A stretch of DNA of 36,338 nt from an uncultured Desulfobulbaceae bacterium (lineage in GTDB: Bacteria; Desulfobacterota; Desulfobulbia; Desulfobulbales; Desulfocapsaceae). Shown here one piece after another: positions 13,604 to 25,172 of the stretch. Below the pieces are notes generated by a model. That model was given only the letters and a program-made list of their open reading frames with translations. It was not told the origin of the DNA and made no database searches. The stretch spans positions 1 to 36,338 of the forward strand of contig CAISPV010000022.1 of the NCBI GenBank assembly GCA_903887485.1, read 5' to 3'. Positions within the stretch are counted from its first letter, which is position 1, and every line of letters begins with the position of its first letter. The translations under genes and the position numbers were made by a program.

Positions 13604-13638
13604 GGACTGATCGTTCAATCAATATCAGGAGCGTGAAT

Positions 13639-14058
13639 ATGGAGTTTCAGTTTTCAAACTTTCTTTATCGCGACAATGTTCTCTGGATTGCGGCCTTCAC
13701 CTTGGGCGGTCTCGCTTTTGCCTTAGGGCCCATCGCTATTGTTTATCTCCTCATGCCTCGCGGCACCCGTCAATTCGAAAACAGAAACAAGCAAGCCATT
13801 GAGTGCGGCATGGTCCCCATTGGTGACAGCTGGGTGCGTTACGGCGTTGTCTTTTTTCTCTACGCCCTCATCTTTCTCGCCTTTGACGTAGATGTCCTTT
13901 TTCTGTTCCCGGTTGCCCTTGCTTACAACAATGAGATGTTTGCCTATAGGGATTTTGTAGAAATTGTAATCTTTGTCGGGATTTTATCGCTCGCAATCGT
14001 ATACGCATGGACAAAGGGAGTATTCAAGTGGGAACGCAAAATATACCTTCACCGTTAG
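13639..14058 (+). CDS. nuoA: NADH-quinone oxidoreductase-type complex I subunit A
   Basis: Small membrane subunit near the quinone site of complex I; 139 residues with three predicted membrane helices (about 14-38, 72-92, 103-125). The conserved loop YECG-like segment appears as [33 protein letters not shown], the family signature including the cysteine exposed in the deactive form of mitochondrial complex I. ATG 13639 was chosen over GTG 13633 because AGGAG (13627-13631) sits 7 bases from it. First gene of a 13-gene operon; its end overlaps nuoB by 31 bases. Confidence 0.95.
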
Positions 14059-14546
14059 AAGCAGTACCTTCATCATTCGTTCAATTTGCCATCGCCGACA
14101 AACTGATCAATCTTGGCCGGGCAAATTCCTTATGGCCACTTACTTTCGGTTTGGCATGCTGCGCCATTGAGATGATGGCAACAGGATGTGCCAGATTTGA
14201 CATGTCAAGATTTGGCGCCGAGGTCTTTCGCCCATCGCCACGACAAAGTGATGTGATGATTGTAGCCGGTACCATTTCCAAAAAAATGCAACCGGGGATC
14301 AAAACACTTTATGACCAGATGTCTGAGCCTAAATGGGTTATGGCACTGGGCAACTGTGCGATCTCGGGTGGACCTTTTGCATTTGAGGGACAGTATGGCA
14401 TTGTCCTGGGCGCCGACCAGTTTTTACCGGTTGATGTCTACATCCCCGGATGTCCTCCACGGCCAGAAGCTCTCCTGCAAGGCATCATCGAACTCGAACA
14501 TAAAATTTCCGGCTGGAAAAGATGGAAAAACCCTGAGACTGCATAA
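14028..14546 (+). CDS. nuoB: Complex I subunit B, N2 iron-sulfur protein
   Basis: Carries cluster N2, the terminal iron-sulfur centre that passes electrons to quinone. The cluster ligands are visible as C44 and C45 ([12 protein letters not shown]), C110 (GNCAISGG) and C142 ([11 protein letters not shown]). With start GTG 14028 it is 172 residues; AAGGGAG (14014-14020) sits 7 bases ahead, whereas ATG 14007 has no ribosome site. The gene begins inside nuoA, implying coupled translation. It has the usual length and no missing ligand. Confidence 0.95.
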
Positions 14547-14628
14547 ATCAATTGCGATTTCCAGGCCAGGTTTAATACGATAAAGTCAATCATTTAAACT
14601 GTTTCATACTCCTTCGGAGCCACAGATC

Positions 14629-15117
14629 ATGATACTCGAAACAACACAACAAGCACTGCAAGCACTCTTTGCCGGATCTGTTCCAGCAAATGGAGCTGAG
14701 GCTGGTTCCCCCAGGGGTAATGGTGTTCTCACTCGTGATTACATAATCCATGGATACCACCTTGACGCTCAAGTTGCCGTCGATCAACTCCTGGCAGCTG
14801 TAACTATTCTTGACCAGGCAGGATTTTTTATTGAAAGTATCACCGGTGTTGACTGGATTAAAGAAAACCAGTTGGAAGTCATCTATGATTTTTCCCGTTA
14901 CGACTTTGACACCTGCCGCGTGGTTATCCGTACCAGGATACCTCGTGACCAACCCGTAGTTCCCACCATTTCCACAATATACGCCGGAGCAAACTGGCAT
15001 GAGCGGGAGACCCATGATTTTTTTGGCATCAAATTTGCGGGCCACCCCCACCTCGTCCCCCTGCTCCTTCCTGAAGATGCAGATTTCCATCCACTCTTAA
15101 AGGATTTCAAGGCATGA
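14629..15117 (+). CDS. nuoC: Complex I subunit C (30-kDa type)
   Basis: Peripheral-arm subunit that packs against NuoD; 162 residues, so a separate NuoC and not the fused NuoCD of E. coli. The family signature HERETHDFFGIKFAGHP lies near 130-146. The N-terminal 40 residues (Gly/Ala/Pro-rich) are poorly conserved. An 82-base gap separates it from nuoB without a recognisable signal. The start has GGAG 10 bases ahead. Its TGA overlaps the nuoD ATG in an ATGA junction. Confidence 0.94.
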   Translation: MILETTQQALQALFAGSVPANGAEAGSPRGNGVLTRDYIIHGYHLDAQVAVDQLLAAVTILDQAGFFIESITGVDWIKENQLEVIYDFSRYDFDTCRVVIRTRIPRDQPVVPTISTIYAGANWHERETHDFFGIKFAGHPHLVPLLLPEDADFHPLLKDFKA

Positions 15118-16232
15118 GCGCTCCAATCCAACTCCGACCGGATGAAACTTTCATCCTCAATGTAGGGCCACAGCATCCAGCAACCCACGGTGTCCTCAGG
15201 GTTAAAATGGAAATGGATGGTGAATATATTGTCAAGGCAGAAACAGTCCTTGGTTATGTCCACCGCATGCACGAAAAGATGGGAGAAAACAGGACCTACG
15301 CCCAGTATCTTCCCAACTTAAGTCGCCTCGATTATCTTGGCGCTTTAGGCTATACCCATGGTCATGTCCTGGCTATAGAGCGGGCTGCAGGGATTGAGGT
15401 ACCAGAACGGGCCGAGTATATCCGGGCTATCACCGTTGAGCTCAATCGGGTGGCATCCCACCTCTTCTGGTTCGGGGCCTTTGTCATGGATCTTGGAGGC
15501 TTTAGTCCTCTCATGTACGCCATTCAGGATCGTGAACATATTCTTGATATGCTGGAGGCAGTAACCGGGGCTCGTTTAACCTATTGCTATTACCGTTTTG
15601 GTGGCCTCTACAATGATGTGGACGATGATTTCATTGAGGCAGCCAAACGTTTTATCCCCCGCATGCGTAAATCACTGAAAAAATATGCTGCCTTGGTGAC
15701 GGGCAATATTATCTTTCAGAAACGACTGGAAGGGATAGCACCTGTCTCGGCGGAGATGTGCCGTAAATATGGGGCCACTGGCCCCGTTGCCAGGGGATCT
15801 GGGATCAACTTTGATGTCCGTAAAAATGAGCCCTATTCGGTCTATCCTGAATTCGATTTTGATGTCCCAGTCTATCATGAATGTGACTCCATGGCCCGCT
15901 ACAAGGTACGCATGGATGAAATGGAGCAATCACTGCGGATCATCGAACAGGGCTTAGAAAAATTACCTAGCGGGCCCATCATGACCGAGAAAAAACCAAA
16001 AAATATTAAACTGCCGGTAGGTGATTTCTATCAGGCAGTGGAAACCGCACGCGGCAGTTTTGGAATCAGAATTGTCAGTGATGGTGATAAAAATGCCTAT
16101 CGACTAAAACTGCGTTCACCGACATATTCGAATATGCATCTTTTTGATGAGGCATGTGAGGGGATGCTGATTATGGATGCCCTTGCATTTATGGGAAGCT
16201 TGGACCTCGTCATACCAGAAATGGACAGGTAA
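15114..16232 (+). CDS. nuoD: Complex I subunit D (49-kDa type)
   Basis: Forms the quinone-binding cavity with NuoB; evolutionarily related to the large subunit of [NiFe] hydrogenases, without the nickel ligands. It is 372 residues. Recognisable are VGPQHPATHGVLR with the quinone-site histidine near residue 25, GYVHRMHEKMGENRTYAQYLP, ELNRVASHLFWFGAF and, near the C-terminus, KLRSPTYSNMHLFDEACEG. The gene is translationally coupled to nuoC. A 92-base gap without a clear terminator follows before nuoH. Confidence 0.96.
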   Translation: MSAPIQLRPDETFILNVGPQHPATHGVLRVKMEMDGEYIVKAETVLGYVHRMHEKMGENRTYAQYLPNLSRLDYLGALGYTHGHVLAIERAAGIEVPERAEYIRAITVELNRVASHLFWFGAFVMDLGGFSPLMYAIQDREHILDMLEAVTGARLTYCYYRFGGLYNDVDDDFIEAAKRFIPRMRKSLKKYAALVTGNIIFQKRLEGIAPVSAEMCRKYGATGPVARGSGINFDVRKNEPYSVYPEFDFDVPVYHECDSMARYKVRMDEMEQSLRIIEQGLEKLPSGPIMTEKKPKNIKLPVGDFYQAVETARGSFGIRIVSDGDKNAYRLKLRSPTYSNMHLFDEACEGMLIMDALAFMGSLDLVIPEMDR

Positions 16233-16324: not shown

Positions 16325-17311
16325 ATGAGTTTAACATTACTAAATGTCATAGTTGCTGTGGTGATTGCCATCGCCTTTGCCGCTGCCAACGCCGCCTATC
16401 TGGTCTGGGCCGAGCGCAGAGGTGCAGCCCGCATCCAGCGCCGTCCAGGTCCAAATATTAACGGCCCCTTTGGACTGTTACAACCACCTCTTGACGGCAT
16501 CAAACTGATGACCAAGCAGCTGATGATCCCGGGAGGAGCTGACAAAATTCTGTTTATGGTAGCCCCGGTACTTGCCATGGCACCAGCCATCATGAGTTTT
16601 GTCACCATCCCTTTCAGCAAGGGAATCGCCGCCCATAATATGGAGATTGGCGTCCTCATGATTTTCGCCTTTGCCTCCATGGGTGCCATGGCCATCCTCT
16701 TTGCCGGCTGGGGTTCTCGCAATAAGTATTCAGTCATGGCCTCGGTCAGGGCGGTATCACAAAATGTCTCCTATGAGATTCCCATGCTGATCACAGCGAT
16801 TACTGTGGTCATGGTCAATGGTTCTATGGATCTCAAGGCGATCAGCCTAGCCCAGGCCGGTGGTTTCTGGCACTGGAATATCTTTCCATCCCTGCACAGT
16901 CCATTAATGCCGATCTCTTTTATCATATTTTTCATCTGCTCCCTGGCAGAAACCAATCGCGCCCCCTTTGATCTTGGCGAGGCAGAGAGTGAACTGGTGG
17001 CTGGCTTTCATACCGAGTACGGCAGTATGGGCTTTGGTCTCTTCTTCATGGGAGAATATGCAAACATTGTTATTGGCGCCAGTCTGACAACTATTCTGTT
17101 TCTTGGTGGCTGGGATTGTCCCTTTGGCATGTTTCCAGGCGTCTGGTGGTTCTTACTCAAAATCTACCTCCTCATTGCTACCTTTATCTGGATTCGCTGG
17201 ACCTTCCCACGAACAACCATTTACGGACTGCTTAATCTGTCTTGGAAAATACTTATTCCTATATCCCTGTTCAACCTGCTGCTCACTGCAGGATTACTGA
17301 AGGTGTTCTAA
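16325..17311 (+). CDS. nuoH: Complex I subunit H
   Basis: Membrane subunit linking the peripheral arm to the proton-pumping arm; 328 residues with about eight membrane helices. The family segments ERRGAARIQRRPGPNINGPFG (about 31-51), LLQPPLDGIKLMTKQ and the acidic loop LAETNRAPFDLGEAESELVAGFHTEYG, rich in the glutamates of the proton path, are intact. A GGGAGAAGGA site precedes the ATG. nuoI begins one base after its stop. Confidence 0.96.
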   Translation: MSLTLLNVIVAVVIAIAFAAANAAYLVWAERRGAARIQRRPGPNINGPFGLLQPPLDGIKLMTKQLMIPGGADKILFMVAPVLAMAPAIMSFVTIPFSKGIAAHNMEIGVLMIFAFASMGAMAILFAGWGSRNKYSVMASVRAVSQNVSYEIPMLITAITVVMVNGSMDLKAISLAQAGGFWHWNIFPSLHSPLMPISFIIFFICSLAETNRAPFDLGEAESELVAGFHTEYGSMGFGLFFMGEYANIVIGASLTTILFLGGWDCPFGMFPGVWWFLLKIYLLIATFIWIRWTFPRTTIYGLLNLSWKILIPISLFNLLLTAGLLKVF

Positions 17312-17312
17312 T

Positions 17313-17771
17313 ATGGGCGGTTATTTCAGCGATATATTCAATGGGAGCAAAAGTCTGCTCATTGGGATGGGTATCACCTTTCGGGAATTTTTCAAACCTA
17401 CCGTAACTGTTCAGTATCCCTATCAGACTCTCAAGATGTCGGCACGGTTTCGTGGACATATCGAGCTCATTGCCGATGAAGAAGGGAATCCAAAATGTGT
17501 CGCCTGTGGGATGTGTCAGCGTGCCTGTCCCTCCGGTTGTATCAGCCTGGACTCTGTCTCGGTGGACATCGAAGTTGATGGGAAAGTTAAGAAGAAAAAG
17601 GTTTTAAGCAAATACGATCTTGATTTTACCAAATGCTCCCTGTGCGGACAATGTGTTGAAAATTGTAATTTTGGGGCAATAGACTTTTCAAAAGAATATA
17701 ATCTTGCGTCTACTCGCAAGGAAGATTTCCACTTTAATCTTCTTAAACGGTTGGAGGAGAGAAACGCATGA
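17313..17771 (+). CDS. nuoI: Complex I subunit I, 2x[4Fe-4S] ferredoxin-like
   Basis: Peripheral subunit carrying two [4Fe-4S] clusters (N6a, N6b) that lead electrons to N2. Two cysteine sets are complete: CVACGMCQRACP and CSLCGQCVENCNFGAID, the second with Asn where Pro is common. Length 152 residues. With NuoE, F and G missing from the operon, this subunit is the likely docking point for the electron donor. It ends in a four-base overlap with nuoJ. Confidence 0.95.
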   Translation: MGGYFSDIFNGSKSLLIGMGITFREFFKPTVTVQYPYQTLKMSARFRGHIELIADEEGNPKCVACGMCQRACPSGCISLDSVSVDIEVDGKVKKKKVLSKYDLDFTKCSLCGQCVENCNFGAIDFSKEYNLASTRKEDFHFNLLKRLEERNA

Positions 17772-18316
17772 ACCCTTCCATGGCCATAACAGAAGCGCCA
17801 GGGCTGTTCACCGCTGACGGCCTGACTGGTCTGATCTTTCTTGTAATGATGGCAGTCACTCTCATTGGTGGAATCATTTCCTGCTGCGCGGAACGACTGG
17901 TACGGGCGGTAGCAGGACTTATTGTCTGTTTTATCGGGGTGGCTGCCCTCTATTACTTCCTAAACTCGCCTTTTGTGGCAATGATGCAGATGCTCATCTA
18001 TGTGGGGGCCGTCTGTATCACTATCGCCTTTGCCATCATGCTCGCTGCCCCAGAAGAAAGCAAAAAAAATGGCCCAGCGGGACCATTATCAGGACCTCTG
18101 GGATTTATCACCGCAGGTCTGGTCACCATCGGATTAATCGTTATGGCGATGAGAGCAAAATTCACCTCTCTCCCCAAGGTCAGTGATGGGACAATGAAAG
18201 AAATGGGAATCCAGCTTCTGACCAGTTATTCCATGGTCTTTGAGCTCATATCCATTGTCCTGTTGATTGCAATCATTGGGGCATTAGTCATAGCCCGTGC
18301 TGGAAGGAGCAAATAA
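17768..18316 (+). CDS. nuoJ: Complex I subunit J
   Basis: Membrane subunit of 182 residues with about five helices. The conserved third helix shows MLIYVGAVCITIAFAIMLA, containing the tyrosine-valine-glycine stretch that forms the pi-bulge in known structures. It overlaps nuoI by four bases and nuoK by one, consistent with tight coupling. Confidence 0.93.
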   Translation: MNPSMAITEAPGLFTADGLTGLIFLVMMAVTLIGGIISCCAERLVRAVAGLIVCFIGVAALYYFLNSPFVAMMQMLIYVGAVCITIAFAIMLAAPEESKKNGPAGPLSGPLGFITAGLVTIGLIVMAMRAKFTSLPKVSDGTMKEMGIQLLTSYSMVFELISIVLLIAIIGALVIARAGRSK

Positions 18317-18642
18317 TGTCTCTACTTACTCTGTACAACAACCTCAACACCTTTCTTTATCTGGCAGCCATGTTGTTTGGCATGGGCATCTATGGGCTTG
18401 TAACCCGGCGAACACTCATCGGGATGCTTATTGCCTCCGAACTGATACTGGCCGCGGCGTCTATTAATTTTATGGCCTTTAACAGGTTTACGGCACCAGA
18501 CCCCACAGTAGGGCAGATATTTACCCTTTTCATCATGGCCATTGCCGCTGCCGAAGCCGCCATTGGACTGAGCATTATCATTGCCGTGTATCGAAACTAT
18601 AAATCTATCGACACCGAAGATCTGGTCGAACTTAAAGGTTAG
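18316..18642 (+). CDS. nuoK: Complex I subunit K
   Basis: Small MrpC-related membrane subunit, 108 residues, three helices. The two functionally important membrane glutamates appear as E42 (ASELILAAASINFMAF) and E80 (AAAEAAIGLSIIIA), corresponding to E36 and E72 of E. coli. The ATG overlaps the nuoJ stop by one base. Length is slightly above the usual 100. Confidence 0.95.
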   Translation: MSLLTLYNNLNTFLYLAAMLFGMGIYGLVTRRTLIGMLIASELILAAASINFMAFNRFTAPDPTVGQIFTLFIMAIAAAEAAIGLSIIIAVYRNYKSIDTEDLVELKG

Positions 18643-18659: not shown

Positions 18660-20141
18660 ATGGATATAACAACGGTCAGTTCCGTAAAACTTCTCATAAC
18701 TCTCCTCGTTCCGCTTATTGGCACCTTGGGTGTCATGTTTATGGGGAAAAACGAGAATATCAGAGAAGGTATCTCGTCGGTTTCCTCAATCATCCTGTTT
18801 TTACTTGTCGCCTCAATGATTCCGACAGTACTGTCCGGCAAGACATTGATCTTCCACATGTTCAGTATCCTTCCTGGAGTCACCGTTACTCTCCGGGCAG
18901 ACGCCATGTCCATGATCTTTGCCTTGGTGGCATCGTCTCTCTGGACGATTGCAGTCTTCTACTCCATGGGCTATATGCGAGCCCACCACGAACATGCACA
19001 GACTCGATTCAATGCCTGTTTTGCTCTGGCAATCTTTGGCGCAATCGGGGTCGCCTTCTCTGATAACCTTTTTACCCTCTATCTCTTTTACGAGATCGTA
19101 TCAATCTGCACCTACCCCCTGGTTGCCCATCATCAGGACGCAGAAGGTTACAATGGCGCCCGGAAATACATTATCTATCTGACCACGACGGCCAAGGCAT
19201 TTCTGTTGCCCGCCCTGATCCTGATCTATGTCCTGACCGGAACCCTTGATTTTGCACCCAATATCTCAACCGGCATATTCCCGCCAGATGTCAACAAGAG
19301 CCTGGTGATCATGCTCTACATTTTCTGTCTCTTCGGTTTTGCCAAAAACGGGGTCATGCCCTTTCATCACTGGCTGCCAGGCGCCATGGTCGCGCCCACT
19401 CCTGTTTCTGCCCTGCTTCATGCCGTGGCCGTTGTTAAGGTTGGTGTTTTCTGCACCACCCGGGTCATGCTGTATGTCTTTGGGGTGGATACCATGCATG
19501 CCCTAAACCTTGGGATTCCAACGGCGTACTTTGTCGGATTTACCGTGATCATGGCCTCAATCCTTGCCCTCTCCAAGAACAACCTCAAAGAACGATTGGC
19601 TTATTCAACCATCAGTCAACTCTCATATATCATCATGGGTGTGGCTCTCCTCACCCCGGCAGGTATTGATGGCGGTCTGATCCATATCGTCAATCATGCC
19701 TTCGCTAAGATCACCCTCTTCTTTTGCGCCGGTGCCATTTATATTGCCGCTCACAAGAAAGATATCTCAGATATGGGAGGACTGGGCAAGACCATGCCCT
19801 TTACCTTCGGGGCCTTTGCCATTGCCTCACTTTCCATGATTGGCGCACCACCGGTCGGCGGATTTATCACCAAATGGAATCTGCTGGTTGGATCCATTCA
19901 GGCCCACCAGATCGGGATTTTGCTCATCCTTATCGCCAGCACCATGCTCAATGTCGGGTATTTCGCACCCATTACCATTAAGGCCTTTTTCGGCAAACGC
20001 CCGGAAGGTGAAACGTTCCAAGGTATCAAAGAGGCGCCCTTGTCCATGCTGATCCCCATCCTCATTGCATGTACAGTCTCTGTCCTTCTTGGTATCTTCC
20101 CAAACTTCATGATGCAATTTGTTAAGGTGGTGACAGGATGA
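18660..20141 (+). CDS. Mrp-type antiporter-like complex I subunit
   Basis: A 493-residue polytopic membrane protein of the proton_antipo_M family, about 14 helices, in the position where nuoL normally stands. The key charged residues are present: E145 (FYEIVSI, TM5), K229 (GFAKNGVMPFHHWLP, TM7), K260 (AVAVVKVG, TM8) and a lysine in GGFITKWN (TM12). It is clearly shorter than NuoL (about 610) and lacks the C-terminal transverse helix, so it looks more like MrpD or NuoM. It follows nuoK by 17 bases and overlaps the next small gene by four. It may be an extra pumping module; calling it NuoL would be by position only. Confidence 0.85.
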   Translation: MDITTVSSVKLLITLLVPLIGTLGVMFMGKNENIREGISSVSSIILFLLVASMIPTVLSGKTLIFHMFSILPGVTVTLRADAMSMIFALVASSLWTIAVFYSMGYMRAHHEHAQTRFNACFALAIFGAIGVAFSDNLFTLYLFYEIVSICTYPLVAHHQDAEGYNGARKYIIYLTTTAKAFLLPALILIYVLTGTLDFAPNISTGIFPPDVNKSLVIMLYIFCLFGFAKNGVMPFHHWLPGAMVAPTPVSALLHAVAVVKVGVFCTTRVMLYVFGVDTMHALNLGIPTAYFVGFTVIMASILALSKNNLKERLAYSTISQLSYIIMGVALLTPAGIDGGLIHIVNHAFAKITLFFCAGAIYIAAHKKDISDMGGLGKTMPFTFGAFAIASLSMIGAPPVGGFITKWNLLVGSIQAHQIGILLILIASTMLNVGYFAPITIKAFFGKRPEGETFQGIKEAPLSMLIPILIACTVSVLLGIFPNFMMQFVKVVTG

Positions 20142-20389
20142 TTGTCAATGTTATCGATTATCTACGTGACCGGCTGCAGCTGGTTAAATATTGCTGCTAT
20201 GGTGGTATCGCCCTCATAGTCATCTGGAGCCTGACCGTTGACACCAGCCATGCACACACCTGGGCTGAAAAGATGATACCAGGATTCTGGTCCCTGTTTG
20301 GCCTTGGCTCCTGTGCAGTCGTCATTATGGTGGCAAGAGTGCTCAGCAGAAGCGGGATCATGACCCGGGAGGATTATTATGACAACTAA
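20138..20389 (+). CDS. Small two-helix membrane protein within the nuo operon
   Basis: An 83-residue protein I cannot assign to a named family. It has a basic amphipathic start (DYLRDRLQLVK), a first membrane helix (about 15-34), a short external loop (DTSHAHTWAEKMI), a second helix (about 46-68) and the charged tail SRSGIMTREDYYDN. The gene overlaps its neighbours by 4 and 11 bases on either side, so it is certainly translated with them and probably belongs to the complex. It might be an accessory subunit joining the two antiporter-like proteins. Confidence 0.8.
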   Translation: MIVNVIDYLRDRLQLVKYCCYGGIALIVIWSLTVDTSHAHTWAEKMIPGFWSLFGLGSCAVVIMVARVLSRSGIMTREDYYDN

Positions 20390-22166
20390 TTTTTTCCATC
20401 CGGCCCTCATCATGATCATAGGGGCGCTTCTATTACCCTTGGTCAGAGGACCGTTCAGAAAGCCCTATCTCTTTCTGATTCCCTTATTGACCTTTCTGGA
20501 TGTACTCTATCTGAGCCAGCATCCCGGCACTTATGGTGTCCTCCAATTTCTCGACTGGGAGCTCACCTTTGGCCGGGTCGACCGCCTTTCCATGATCTTT
20601 GGTTTTATCATGGCATTGATGGCCATTATCGGCACCATCTACTCCATGCATGTGGACGATGAATGGCAGCATATTGCTGCCTGGTTTTATGTGGCAGGGT
20701 CGCTCGGCGTCATCTACTGCGGCGATTTCCTGGTACTTTTTCTTTTCTGGGAGATGATGGCCTTTGCCTCCACCTTCCTGATCTGGTTCAAAAAGGATCC
20801 TGAATCGCTGGCGGCAGGGTATCGATACATTCTTGTCCATACCTTTGGCGGGGTTATCCTTCTGTTAGGTTTTGTCCTCAGATATCAGGCAACCGGCGAC
20901 CTCTCCTTTGTCCAGTTAAATGTCCAGAATCCGGAGTTGTACACCTGGCTTATCATGATTGGCCTGATGCTGAATGCCGCAGTACCTCCATTGCACTCCT
21001 GGTTACCAGATGCCTATAGTAAGGCTACCGTTACCGGTTCCGTCTTCATGTGCGCCTTCACCACCAAGACAGCTATCTACACCTTGGCCAGAAGCTGTGC
21101 CGGCTTTGATGTGCTCATTGTTCTCGGAGTCATAATGGCCATCTACGGCATCATTTACGCGATCATGGAAAATGATGTTCGCAAACTTCTGGCTTGGGAA
21201 ATTGTCTCACAGGTTGGCTATATGGTGACAGGCGTAGGCATTGGTACTGCCCTTGCCATTAATGGCACCTGTGCCCATGCCTTCGCTCATATCCTTTACA
21301 AAGGTCTGCTGTTCATGGCAGCAGGGGCAGTTATTCATGCCACCGGTAAATCCAAATTTACCGAACTCGGCGGACTCTATAAAAAAATGCCTGTCACCTT
21401 TGTCTTTCTCGTGATCGGGGGAATATCTGTTTCCGCCTTCCCCTTTCTCTCTGGTTTTGTCTCAAAATCAATGATCATCAGTGCCAGCTTTGAATCACAT
21501 ATCCTCTGGGCCGGTTTTCTCCTGACCGTAGTCTCTGCTGGAACCTTCCTGGTGGCTGGCCTCAGACTTCCTTATCTTCTCTTTTTCAGTGAGAATAAAT
21601 GCAGTGCTGAAACCTGGGAAAAAGCTAAAGATCCCTCCTGGAACATGCAGCTTGCGATGATGCTCGCTGCTTTTCTCTGCATCTTCATCGGCTCCTATCT
21701 TCCCTTTCTCTATGGTATGCTCCCCAACACTGAGGTGGCCTATCATCCTTATGGGGCCTATCATCTAAGTGAAACCCTGCAAATCCTGGCACTTACTGCC
21801 TTGGGCTTCTTTTTGTTGCGCAAATATATTACGGCCAGAGAAACCATCAGTCTGGATCTGGACTGGTTCTACCGGAAAGGCGGCCAATATTTTCTCTGGA
21901 CAGTTACCAACCCCTTACAGTGGTTTGATACCGCTTTCAGTAAGGCATATAGAGTTGTCGGTTTGAGCACACTGATGACCACTTCACAATTCTGGTCATG
22001 GTTTGACTGGAATGGGATTGACGGCGTGGTTGATGGAACGGCCCGTTGCGTACGCGCCATTGGTCGGCGCGTCAGTCTGGTTCTCCAGCGCGGTCAGATT
22101 CAGCAGACAATATATTATACGGTAACTTTTGCCGCCGTTATTCTTGTAGCTTACGTCTGGCTATAA
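20379..22166 (+). CDS. NuoL-like antiporter subunit with TM7 Lys replaced by Asn
   Basis: A 595-residue membrane protein of the NuoL/MrpA family. The core (about 65-420) carries E125 (FLFWEMMAFAS, TM5), K230 (TTKTAIYTLAR, TM8) and K in GFVSKSM (TM12). At the position of the central TM7 lysine stands N199 (LMLNAAVPPLHSWLPDA, codon AAT at 20973-20975). The C-terminal 120 residues (LDWFYRKGGQYF, then GIDGVVDGTARC and a last hydrophobic helix after RGQIQQ) resemble the NuoL end that carries the lateral helix, in shorter form. It is the best candidate for the distal subunit. It overlaps the upstream small gene and precedes nuoM by 27 bases. Confidence 0.85.
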   Translation: MTTNFFHPALIMIIGALLLPLVRGPFRKPYLFLIPLLTFLDVLYLSQHPGTYGVLQFLDWELTFGRVDRLSMIFGFIMALMAIIGTIYSMHVDDEWQHIAAWFYVAGSLGVIYCGDFLVLFLFWEMMAFASTFLIWFKKDPESLAAGYRYILVHTFGGVILLLGFVLRYQATGDLSFVQLNVQNPELYTWLIMIGLMLNAAVPPLHSWLPDAYSKATVTGSVFMCAFTTKTAIYTLARSCAGFDVLIVLGVIMAIYGIIYAIMENDVRKLLAWEIVSQVGYMVTGVGIGTALAINGTCAHAFAHILYKGLLFMAAGAVIHATGKSKFTELGGLYKKMPVTFVFLVIGGISVSAFPFLSGFVSKSMIISASFESHILWAGFLLTVVSAGTFLVAGLRLPYLLFFSENKCSAETWEKAKDPSWNMQLAMMLAAFLCIFIGSYLPFLYGMLPNTEVAYHPYGAYHLSETLQILALTALGFFLLRKYITARETISLDLDWFYRKGGQYFLWTVTNPLQWFDTAFSKAYRVVGLSTLMTTSQFWSWFDWNGIDGVVDGTARCVRAIGRRVSLVLQRGQIQQTIYYTVTFAAVILVAYVWL

Positions 22167-22193: not shown

Positions 22194-23720
22194 ATGGATC
22201 AACTACTTATAAATCCAAATTATCCACATATTCTGAGCACTCTGATTTTCTTGCCCCTGGCAGGAGCCTTACTATTGCTCTTTGTGCAAAATGAATACTT
22301 TGCCCGTTTTTGGGCCTTGGGGATCGCCACTCTTACCGCCATACTCTCTATCCCGCTTGTCCGTGCCTTTGACCAAACATCAGCCAAGTTTCAATTTGCT
22401 GAACAGTACAGCTGGATAAATTCACTCAACATCCAGTATGTTATCGGGATTGATGGTATCTCTATCCTGCTGGTAATGTTGACAACCTTGATCATGCCTC
22501 TCTGTATCCTGGCATCATGGAGCTATATCAAGACCCGTGTTCAGACCTTCATGATCTGCCTGCTGATCATGGAAACTGCCATGCTCGGTGTCTTCATGGC
22601 CTTGGATTTTGTCCTGTTTTACATCCTCTGGGAGGCCATGCTGATTCCCATGTACCTGCTTATCGGGATCTGGGGTGGTCCAAGGAAGATTTACGCGTCA
22701 ATCAAATTTTTCCTTTATACCCTGGCTGGCTCCATTATGCTGCTGGTTGGAATTATCTGGCTCTACAAGACGAATAATTACTCCTTTTTTATCCCAGATA
22801 TGATGTGGCGGAATTATTCACTGACCGCCCAGATCTATCTCTTTTTGGCCTTCTTTCTGGCTTTTGCCATCAAAGTTCCCATGTTTCCTTTTCATACATG
22901 GCTACCCGCTGCGCATGTTGAAGCACCAACGGCAGGTTCTGTTATTCTGGCTTCCGTTCTCTTGAAAATGGGGACGTATGGCTTTCTCCGCTTTGCCTTG
23001 CCCATAACGCCACAGGCCACCACGCTACTCATGCCTTATATCCTCTGGTTATCGATTGCTGGCATCATCTATGGAGGGTTTACTGCCCTGGCCCAGCAAG
23101 ACATGAAAAAACTGATTGCCTACTCCTCTGTTGGCCATATGGGATTTGTCACACTGGGAATCTTTGTCATGAATCTTGAAGGAATAGAAGGTTCCATTCT
23201 GCAGATGATTAACCACGGTATTACCACTGGTGCCCTGTTTCTCTGCGTCGGAATGATCTACGAGAGAACACACAGTCGTGAACTTCGCTCCGCTACCGGT
23301 GTTGGCAAGTATATGCCAATCTATGTCACCTTTCTTGCCTTTTTCTCCCTCTCATCTTTTGGTTTTCCAGGAACTAACAGCTTTGTCGGGGAGTTTATGA
23401 TTCTGGCTGGCGCGTTCAAGCACAGCATACCCCTTGCCCTGGCTGCCATTCCTGGTGCAGTCCTTGCTGCCGCCTACATGCTGCGCATGCTTCAAAAGAT
23501 TGTCTGGGGAGGGACAGATAATCCAGATCAGTCTTGGCTCAAGGATCTGAATCTGCGTGAGATTATCACCTTATGCCCCTTCCTCTTTTTTGTTTTCTGG
23601 ATCGGACTGGGGCCACAGCCTTTTATTGATCTTATGCACATCAGTGTTATAAACCTCCTTGAGCAGTTTCATGCACATCAGGGTCAGGCAGTAGCTGCCG
23701 CAGAATTAATTTTTCATTAA
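22194..23720 (+). CDS. nuoM: Complex I subunit M
   Basis: Proton-pumping antiporter-like subunit, 508 residues, about 14 helices. Typical NuoM segments are VIGIDGISILLVMLTT (about 83-98), E147 (YILWEAMLIPMYLLIG), K227 (AIKVPMFPFHTWLPAAHVEAPT) and K258 (SVLLKMGTYGFLRF). These match E144, K234 and K265 of E. coli NuoM. The length and motifs are canonical, in contrast to the two antiporter-like genes upstream. nuoN follows after 39 bases. Confidence 0.95.
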   Translation: MDQLLINPNYPHILSTLIFLPLAGALLLLFVQNEYFARFWALGIATLTAILSIPLVRAFDQTSAKFQFAEQYSWINSLNIQYVIGIDGISILLVMLTTLIMPLCILASWSYIKTRVQTFMICLLIMETAMLGVFMALDFVLFYILWEAMLIPMYLLIGIWGGPRKIYASIKFFLYTLAGSIMLLVGIIWLYKTNNYSFFIPDMMWRNYSLTAQIYLFLAFFLAFAIKVPMFPFHTWLPAAHVEAPTAGSVILASVLLKMGTYGFLRFALPITPQATTLLMPYILWLSIAGIIYGGFTALAQQDMKKLIAYSSVGHMGFVTLGIFVMNLEGIEGSILQMINHGITTGALFLCVGMIYERTHSRELRSATGVGKYMPIYVTFLAFFSLSSFGFPGTNSFVGEFMILAGAFKHSIPLALAAIPGAVLAAAYMLRMLQKIVWGGTDNPDQSWLKDLNLREIITLCPFLFFVFWIGLGPQPFIDLMHISVINLLEQFHAHQGQAVAAAELIFH

Positions 23721-23759: not shown

Positions 23760-25172
23760 ATGCAATTTCTACCTGAGTTAGCACTGTTGGGAGCGGCTCT
23801 TGTCATCTTCCTGGTCAGTCTGGGAAAGACTGACGCTGACAAAATGAAAACGGTTGCCATTTGTCTGGGAATAACAGTATTTGCGGCAACGCTTTTCAGC
23901 TTTGGACAAAAAGGAAGCCTTTTTTATGACGCCTACAAGATTGACCTCTACTCCCAGGTCTTCAAAACCCTGATTGCCGGAGCTATGGTTGTTGTCCTTA
24001 TCCTGGGACGCAAACTGAAAGATATACAAAAGACTGTTCATCCCGAATACTATCTTTTCCTGTTTATCAGCGTCCTCGGGCTCATGATGCTGGTCTCAAG
24101 CGTTGAACTTCTATCGATTTTTGTGGCTATGGAGCTCTCTTCCTTTGCCGTCTATATCATGGTTCCCATGCGAAATGACATTGGAAATTATCATTTTCAA
24201 ATGGAAGCCGGTATCAAATATCTGCTTTTTGGTGTTACCGCAACCGGATTCATGCTCTTTGGCATGAGTTATCTGTTTGGCTTGACTGGATCGACTCAAC
24301 TTGCAGTAATTATGGAAAAACTTTCGCATATATATAATCAACCAGCAGCAATCGTCGCTATCATGATGGTATTGGCAGGCTTCTTCTATAAACTTGCCCT
24401 TTTTCCTTTTCATTTCTGGGTACCAGATGTCTATGAAGGCGCCTCCAACGAGACTACTGCCTTTATTGCCTCCGTCCCCAAACTGGCCGCAGTTGCCTTG
24501 CTGATCCGCCTTGTCAGTATGGTGAACGGCGAAGGACAGATCATTGTCAACATCCTGATGGTATGTGCAGTTCTTTCCATGTTTTACGGGAACCTGTCAG
24601 CCCTTGTCCAGACCGATATCAAACGCATGCTTGGATTTTCAGGCATAGCCCATGCAGGATTTGTTCTCCTTGGAATACTCACCTTCCAAATCAGTGGCTA
24701 TGCCAATGCCCTCTACTATATCATTGGTTATGTAGTGATGAACTTGGCCTGTTTTCTGGTTATTTGTTCCGTTTCCAGCAATGGTGAGAATGTTCAAATC
24801 AAGGATTTAAGTGGGCTGCATAAACGTTCACCATTGCTTGCGCTTACTTTGACGGTGGCCCTTTTTGCACTCGCTGGCATTCCTCCCTTTGTTGGCTTCA
24901 TGGGTAAATTCATGCTGCTTGCTGGCGCGTTAAGACAAGGTTATCTCCTTCTGGTCATTCTTGCTGCCATTAATACGGCAATTGCCATCTTCTATTATCT
25001 CTCTGTGGTTCGTGTCACCTTCTGCAGTGATCCTGACAACAAAGATAGCGTTGTCAGTGGTCTCTTTACCAATATGACATCCATTGTTCTTCTACTCATT
25101 ATTGTAATCATGGGTGTCGCTCCCCAACGATTTGTTGATTTTGCCACATTCACTGTCCAATCAATGATGTAA
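23760..25172 (+). CDS. nuoN: Complex I subunit N
   Basis: Antiporter-like membrane subunit of 470 residues, usually next to NuoK in the complex. E125 (VAMELSSFAVYIM), K211 (GFFYKLALFPFHFWVPDVYEGA) and K241 (SVPKLAAVALLIR) are in the expected places. The VPDVYEGAS motif distinguishes it from NuoM. It is the last gene of the operon; a strong terminator starts about 65 bases after its stop. Confidence 0.95.
   Translation: MQFLPELALLGAALVIFLVSLGKTDADKMKTVAICLGITVFAATLFSFGQKGSLFYDAYKIDLYSQVFKTLIAGAMVVVLILGRKLKDIQKTVHPEYYLFLFISVLGLMMLVSSVELLSIFVAMELSSFAVYIMVPMRNDIGNYHFQMEAGIKYLLFGVTATGFMLFGMSYLFGLTGSTQLAVIMEKLSHIYNQPAAIVAIMMVLAGFFYKLALFPFHFWVPDVYEGASNETTAFIASVPKLAAVALLIRLVSMVNGEGQIIVNILMVCAVLSMFYGNLSALVQTDIKRMLGFSGIAHAGFVLLGILTFQISGYANALYYIIGYVVMNLACFLVICSVSSNGENVQIKDLSGLHKRSPLLALTLTVALFALAGIPPFVGFMGKFMLLAGALRQGYLLLVILAAINTAIAIFYYLSVVRVTFCSDPDNKDSVVSGLFTNMTSIVLLLIIVIMGVAPQRFVDFATFTVQSMM

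Follow-up and report, generated by a model that had tools for sequence, protein, structure and literature searches.

What does an antiporter-like subunit of complex I do when the lysine of its transmembrane helix 7 (TM7) is gone? Models of long-range coupling are built around this lysine. It has been called absolutely conserved and essential for activity in Mrp and in the related proteins of complex I (PMC7419157). The question is posed by a stretch of 36,338 nucleotides from an uncultured Desulfobulbaceae bacterium (contig CAISPV010000022.1), which as a whole is termed the window here. An earlier note on the window had reported that one of its antiporter-like proteins has Asn in place of this lysine and had suggested a silent, altered or differently coupled channel.

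The replacement is real. The open reading frame at 20379-22166 of the forward strand, termed Z below, translates as a single frame of 595 aa. Residue 199 is Asn (codon AAT, 20973-20975), and His206 of the PxLHxWLP motif follows seven residues on. Exactly the same spacing from Lys to His is present in the other three antiporter-like proteins of the window, i.e., X (K229-H236), NuoM (K227-H234) and NuoN (K211-H218), as the earlier note had stated. The NuoN motif reads WVP instead of WLP and is missed by the pattern; K211 is present all the same. When aligned with E. coli NuoL (K229), NuoM (K234) and NuoN, Asn199 occupies the column of the TM7 lysine. A misalignment of TM7 is ruled out by the seven-residue spacing, by the common column in NuoL, NuoM and NuoN and by the structure model, in which Asn199 ends TM7a. 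Equally, a sequencing or assembly error is ruled out, because Asn is present in each of the 12 closest same-genus relatives and in most of the family. Of the canonical Glu5-Lys7 pair Z thus retains the glutamate of TM5 (Glu125, 20751-20753) and lacks the lysine of TM7. The TM8 lysine (Lys230, 21066-21068), which like the TM5 glutamate had been described correctly as still present, the TM12 lysine (Lys363, 21465-21467) and the fold with a broken TM7 are those of a canonical antiporter-like subunit. His300, His304 and Lys308 of the central axis (21276-21302) are present as well.

A complex I gene cluster with two MrpD-like genes and no nuoL

All genes of the cluster are on the forward strand in the order nuoA-B-C-D-H-I-J-K-X-s-Z-M-N. 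nuoA, B, C and D span 13633-16232, nuoH, I, J and K 16325-18642, and nuoM and nuoN are located at 22194-23720 and 23760-25172. nuoL is absent from the cluster; its place between nuoK and nuoM is occupied by X (18660-20141), the 83 aa s (20138-20389) and Z. The earlier note had recorded neither the missing NuoL nor the family-wide rule of Asn nor the invariant His on TM6 which are described below. X is an MrpD1-type subunit (NF006236, 822 bits) which keeps both Lys229 and Lys405. Z is of the MrpD2 type with a C-terminal lateral helix. It matches the NCBIfam family NF009310 (PRK12668, Na(+)/H(+) antiporter subunit D) with 741.3 bits over residues 2-591, above the curated cut-off of 564. No other family scores nearly as high; the profile of hydrogenase 4 subunit B attains 191 bits, below its cut-off of 667. 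The protein s matches no Pfam or NCBIfam family. Most related loci carry a relative of it at this position (73 ORFs), and it is possibly a dedicated part of an X-s-Z module.

Replacement of NuoL by two MrpD-like proteins is the hallmark of the 'green' complex I (PMC9040806), for which a role in rhizobia has been described (PMC7415380). Two MrpD-like genes between nuoK and nuoM and a missing nuoL are what is found here, and Z is the second MrpD-like subunit, MrpD2, of a green complex I. The rhizobial order J K X s Z M N is matched by the window, as a comparison with the Sinorhizobium meliloti plasmid CP050513 shows. This plasmid is annotated as J, K, MrpD family, hypothetical, Na(+)/H(+) antiporter subunit D, M, N, A, B, C, D, E, F, G, and its Z likewise has His154 and Asn199. 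In contrast to the plasmid, the cluster of the window starts with A B C D H I and has no nuoE, F or G between 13633 and 25172; in the entire assembly, which is 97.7% complete, nothing matches the NuoF family. The cluster is that of a complex I without NADH module. Among named relatives, a Desulfocapsa MAG is the closest, at 96%.

The assembly holds seven matches to PF00361: X, Z, NuoM, NuoN and three hydrogenase-4-like proteins on another contig (locus L148, contig C117). The latter, two subunit B-like and one subunit F-like, all keep the TM7 lysine.

An AlphaFold2 model of Z has a mean pLDDT of 85.3, with the lateral helix (496-568) at lower confidence. It places Glu125 in TM5 (117-136), residue 154 in TM6 (141-172) and Asn199 at the very end of TM7a (187-199). 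The best structural match is MrpD (Z-score 44.7, rmsd 2.3, 443 residues aligned), tied with NuoL. With NuoL and MrpA, the usual distal subunits, Z shares the fold, the TM12 lysine, the lateral helix and the last TM helix. Unlike Z, these proteins have Lys at the site of Asn199 and Arg/Asp instead of His on TM6, and the E. coli NuoL tail is shorter. Counted from the Asp aligned with D495 to the end, an anchor which is our own choice of equivalent, the tail has 72 residues in E. coli NuoL versus 100-106 in 137 of 140 complex I members; in Mrp-type members with Asn it varies from 77 to 124. Insertions of about 26 residues in the lateral helix have been linked to an extra pump, and they occur also in NuoL of complexes without one (PMC9040806). 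Lateral-helix length was therefore rejected as a count of pumps and is supportive only. The tails are in line with Z as the spanning, probably distal subunit of a four-pump arm.

Residue 199 across the family and its genomic context

To follow residue 199 through the family, 299 ORFs were collected from fetched loci with a profile of our own (score > 250). After removal of ORFs that repeated an identical 250-residue stretch 258 remained, the window copy included. In this uneven sample, gathered by similarity to Z, residue 199 is Asn in 205 ORFs, Lys in 50 and Ser in 3. Thus, the alignment of homologues for which the earlier note had called reveals Asn as the rule; members with Asn extend down to about 34% identity with the window protein. 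The remaining residues of the proton path are retained in nearly all members: Glu125 in 256 of 258 (one gap, one Gln), Lys230 and Lys363 in 257 each, Lys308 in 243, His300 in 242 and His304 in 220. In a first set of named ORFs (> 300 bits, those of the window included) the lysine is invariant in X (69/69), NuoM (72/72) and NuoN (59/59), and Z has Asn in 80 of 81 and Ser in one. Among the 63 ORFs of a further X-class set, which takes in MrpD-like proteins, Lys is present in 60, Glu and Ala in one each, and one is a fragment. An MrpD-like protein at locus L168 (8159-9649) carries Glu at the TM7 and the TM8 lysine positions alike.

The family is widespread. Named relatives are found in Desulfocapsa, in other Desulfobulbales-type genomes, in Verrucomicrobiota, in Rhizobium, Mesorhizobium and Ruegeria and in a Marinimicrobia MAG. 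NF009310 is above cut-off in 88 of 198 genomes of the phylum of the window, in 53 of 240 genomes of the class of Rhizobium freirei, and in 8 of 145 and 4 of 100 genomes of two further phyla.

Two of the ORFs with Ser199 deviate at other sites, too. At L295 (4757-6502) Ser199 is accompanied by Gln for Glu125, Thr for His206 and Ser for Lys308. At L166 (4107-10324) relatives of X, Z, M and N stand in a row with open frames, yet most proton-path residues are gone, in X, M and N as well as in Z. This Z has lost Lys230, His300, His304, Lys308 and Lys363, with Glu125 left; the locus is decayed or repurposed.

The direction of change was examined in a FastTree phylogeny computed with columns 154 and 199 removed and in an IQ-TREE quick tree of 64 rows. 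In the former, all 48 Lys proteins form one clade (support 1.0) nested inside the Asn proteins; the latter agrees, with a single Lys clade supported at 100. An AU test does not reject a single clade of all Asn proteins (p = 0.412), so either Asn or Lys could have come first, and Asn is not established by the trees as the ancestral state in spite of the nesting. The trees suggest about one switch between the two states, in either direction.

Different pictures emerge when the ORFs are sorted by genomic context, assigned from same-strand neighbours by a rule of our own. Of 141 ORFs in complex I clusters 139 have Asn and two have Ser, one of these the decayed L166; none has Lys. The 49 ORFs in Mrp-type clusters comprise 27 with Asn, 21 with Lys and one with Ser. 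In the remaining 68, with flanks too short or unclear, Asn is present in 39 and Lys in 29. Lys is therefore confined to Mrp-type clusters wherever the context is readable. The reverse does not hold: Asn is not confined to complex I clusters. The existence of homologues with Lys, which the earlier note had envisaged as the mark of a sequencing error, does not have this meaning. They exist (50 of 258), but they belong to one clade, and their readable contexts are all Mrp-type.

The X-s-Z trio is also present in loci that lack nuo genes, where it follows MrpC- and MrpD-like genes. In two such loci which were both scanned, L155 (6699-14170) and L159 (7353-14918), relatives of MnhE, MnhB/MbhD/MbhE, MrpF and MnhG are positioned between the MrpC/MrpD-like genes and the trio. 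These neighbours suggest that in Mrp antiporters, too, X-s-Z takes the role of the distal subunit; in L155 and L159 it apparently replaces the N-terminal part of MrpA. One Mrp-type cluster (L172, 5640-9771) has a tandem pair of MrpD2 genes.

His154 and the columns that change with residue 199

Residue 154 of TM6, His in the window (codon CAT, 20838-20840), goes with residue 199. The combinations in the 258 ORFs are His/Asn in 204, Gln/Lys in 46, His/Lys in 4, His/Ser in 2, and Gln/Ser and gap/Asn in one each. Wherever TM6 of an Asn199 ORF is readable, residue 154 is His (204/204, the window copy counted; the one further ORF is gapped there). A pairing of Gln154 with Asn199 does not occur among the 258 ORFs. 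Among the titratable residues which are at least 95% conserved in the Asn type, only His154 is nearly absent from the Lys type, where 4 of 50 ORFs retain it; there, His304 is relaxed and lost in about half. The comparison of titratable residues in the two types revealed no conserved substitute Lys for Asn199, and another lysine as stand-in for that of TM7 was dismissed. The four Lys ORFs with His154 arise at three places within the Lys clade; His, therefore, does not require Asn. The Lys proteins being one clade, the many sequences are not as many tests of the link between 154 and 199, and about one switch gives this link limited weight.

When Asn and Lys ORFs of Mrp-type clusters are compared, the most divergent columns of 553 besides 199 are 157, 202, 195, 154, 204 and 197, which all map to TM6 or to the TM7 break. 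Any such contrast of clades yields some differing columns. The 17-column window around residue 199 is among the top 5% or so of windows. The windows around Glu125, Lys230, His304, Lys308 and Lys363 show no raised difference between Asn and Lys types.

His154 aligns one residue before NuoL Arg175 and one turn from Asp178. These two residues, on the same stretch of TM6, are said to form ion pairs with Glu144 and Lys229 of NuoL (PMC13144422); the equivalents in T. thermophilus are Arg163 and Asp166 (PMC11496545).

The neighbour X may be touched as well. Its columns 402 and 403 are the top two of 482 in separating partners of the 27 Mrp-type Asn ORFs from those of 49 Lys ORFs. They adjoin Lys405 of TM12, a site which was inspected only after the list had been seen, and the surroundings of Lys405 as a whole (17 columns) do not stand out: 57% of windows reach an equal score. 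None of the 204 readable partners examined has lost Lys405 itself. In the Mrp structure the loop of the TM12 break touches the TM5 glutamate of the neighbouring subunit (PMC7419157).

A proposed rebuilt switch and its alternatives

We consider a rebuilt switch the best explanation, with a probability of about one half: an altered Glu125-His154/Asn199 switch in a lateral-helix-bearing, probably distal MrpD2 of a four-pump green complex I with an intact proton wire. The TM5-TM7 switch would have been remodelled by replacement of the TM7 lysine with Asn199. Most likely, His154 of TM6 would be the titratable partner of Glu125, facing Glu125 and Asn199 and taking over the task of the lysine, and Asn199 would serve as a neutral, hydrogen-bonding neighbour. 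The wire of Lys230, His300/304, Lys308 and Lys363 is whole, and the pKa of the gate partner would be nearer to neutral than that of lysine. In current models the proton itself is not carried by the Glu5-Lys7 pair, which acts as a gate or tuner of transfer along the central axis (PMC7419157, PMC11496545). With the wire intact, the subunit would still move protons and pump. A plain loss of the lysine is expected to do harm, since the equivalent lysine of Nqo13 of P. denitrificans, tested as K232Q, is reported to be essential for catalysis (PMC9802314).

Alternatively, the loss of the Glu-Lys pair may leave the gate permanently open for conduction across a low barrier, with coupling left to X and His154 incidental. 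Isolated Nqo12 and Nqo13 modules conduct protons faster when the pair is broken by a Glu to Gln exchange (PMC11496545). DabB2 of the DAB2 CO2-uptake complex is an antiporter-like subunit whose TM5-TM7 pair is broken and for which stabilisation of the open state has been argued (PMC13144422); there, in reverse to Z, the glutamate is lost (Ile151) and the lysine is kept. Further, the invariant Lys405 of X could pair with Glu125 across the interface. Such a gate would need neither an invariant His154 beside Asn nor a glutamate retained in 256 of 258 ORFs, and we regard it as doubtful.

Residue 199 may also be a mere lineage marker, at a site which tolerates Asn or Lys and reflects nothing but ancestry. 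With a single Lys clade the accompanying changes could be shared history. Against this, Asn persists in members with as little as about 34% identity to the window protein and in 139 of the 141 ORFs of complex I clusters, none of which has Lys, and the differing columns cluster on TM6 and TM7. We are hardly inclined to accept this view.

A silent, purely structural spacer which moves no protons and serves assembly and length only was part of what the earlier note proposed. It would agree with the reported indispensability of the lysine in Mrp (PMC7419157) and in Nqo13 (PMC9802314). Yet every other path residue is retained by between 220 and 257 of the 258 ORFs. The clearly decayed Z of L166 lost Lys230 through Lys363 together, whereas the Z family keeps them, and a silent Z is therefore unlikely. 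The other part of the proposal, an altered or differently coupled channel, is favoured by the replacement of the TM7 lysine in most of the family and by the concomitant changes in TM6. Least probable of all is a different ion, i.e., a Na+-binding Glu-His-Asn site or one that adapts the subunit to Na+ coupling: Asn and Glu are possible Na+ ligands, and relatives of the family reside in Mrp-type Na+/H+ antiporter clusters, but these clusters hold Asn and Lys types alike (27 and 21 of 49). Moreover, the Na+ path of Mrp has been assigned to the part built of small subunits, not to a subunit of the Z type (PMC7419157).

The proposed Glu-His switch is to be viewed against what is already known, namely the green complex I, the family NF009310, the loss of the lysine in HycC and the loss of the pair in DabB2. 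Like Z, HycC of the E. coli formate hydrogenlyase has lost the TM7 lysine and retained the glutamate of TM5 (Leu208 and Glu135; PMC9474812). Unlike Z, it has Leu, not Asn, is the one antiporter-like subunit on a hydrogenase, carries Glu391 at the TM12 position and belongs to a different family. Z is not of the HycC type, as its TM12 residue is Lys363 and its hydrogenase 4 score is below cut-off. The literature searched, which did not extend to the original descriptions of the green complex I, yielded no mention of the Asn/His state; within these bounds the Asn199/His154 state of MrpD2 may be new.

More tentatively, and with less confidence than in the rebuilt switch itself, we propose that the Glu-Lys switch is exchangeable. 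MrpD2 of the redox-driven green complex I would use a Glu-His version in which the titratable group has moved from TM7 to TM6 and Lys has given way to a neutral Asn. A version with Lys and Gln also exists in Mrp-type antiporters, and one joint change, which would also touch the facing TM12 of the neighbour, might separate the two. A widespread complex I family without TM7 lysine, with the wire kept and with an invariant His on TM6 provides a natural experiment and suggests that the lysine itself is dispensable. At the same time the family supplies defined residues to swap, i.e., the Lys/Gln and the Asn/His versions of one and the same protein.
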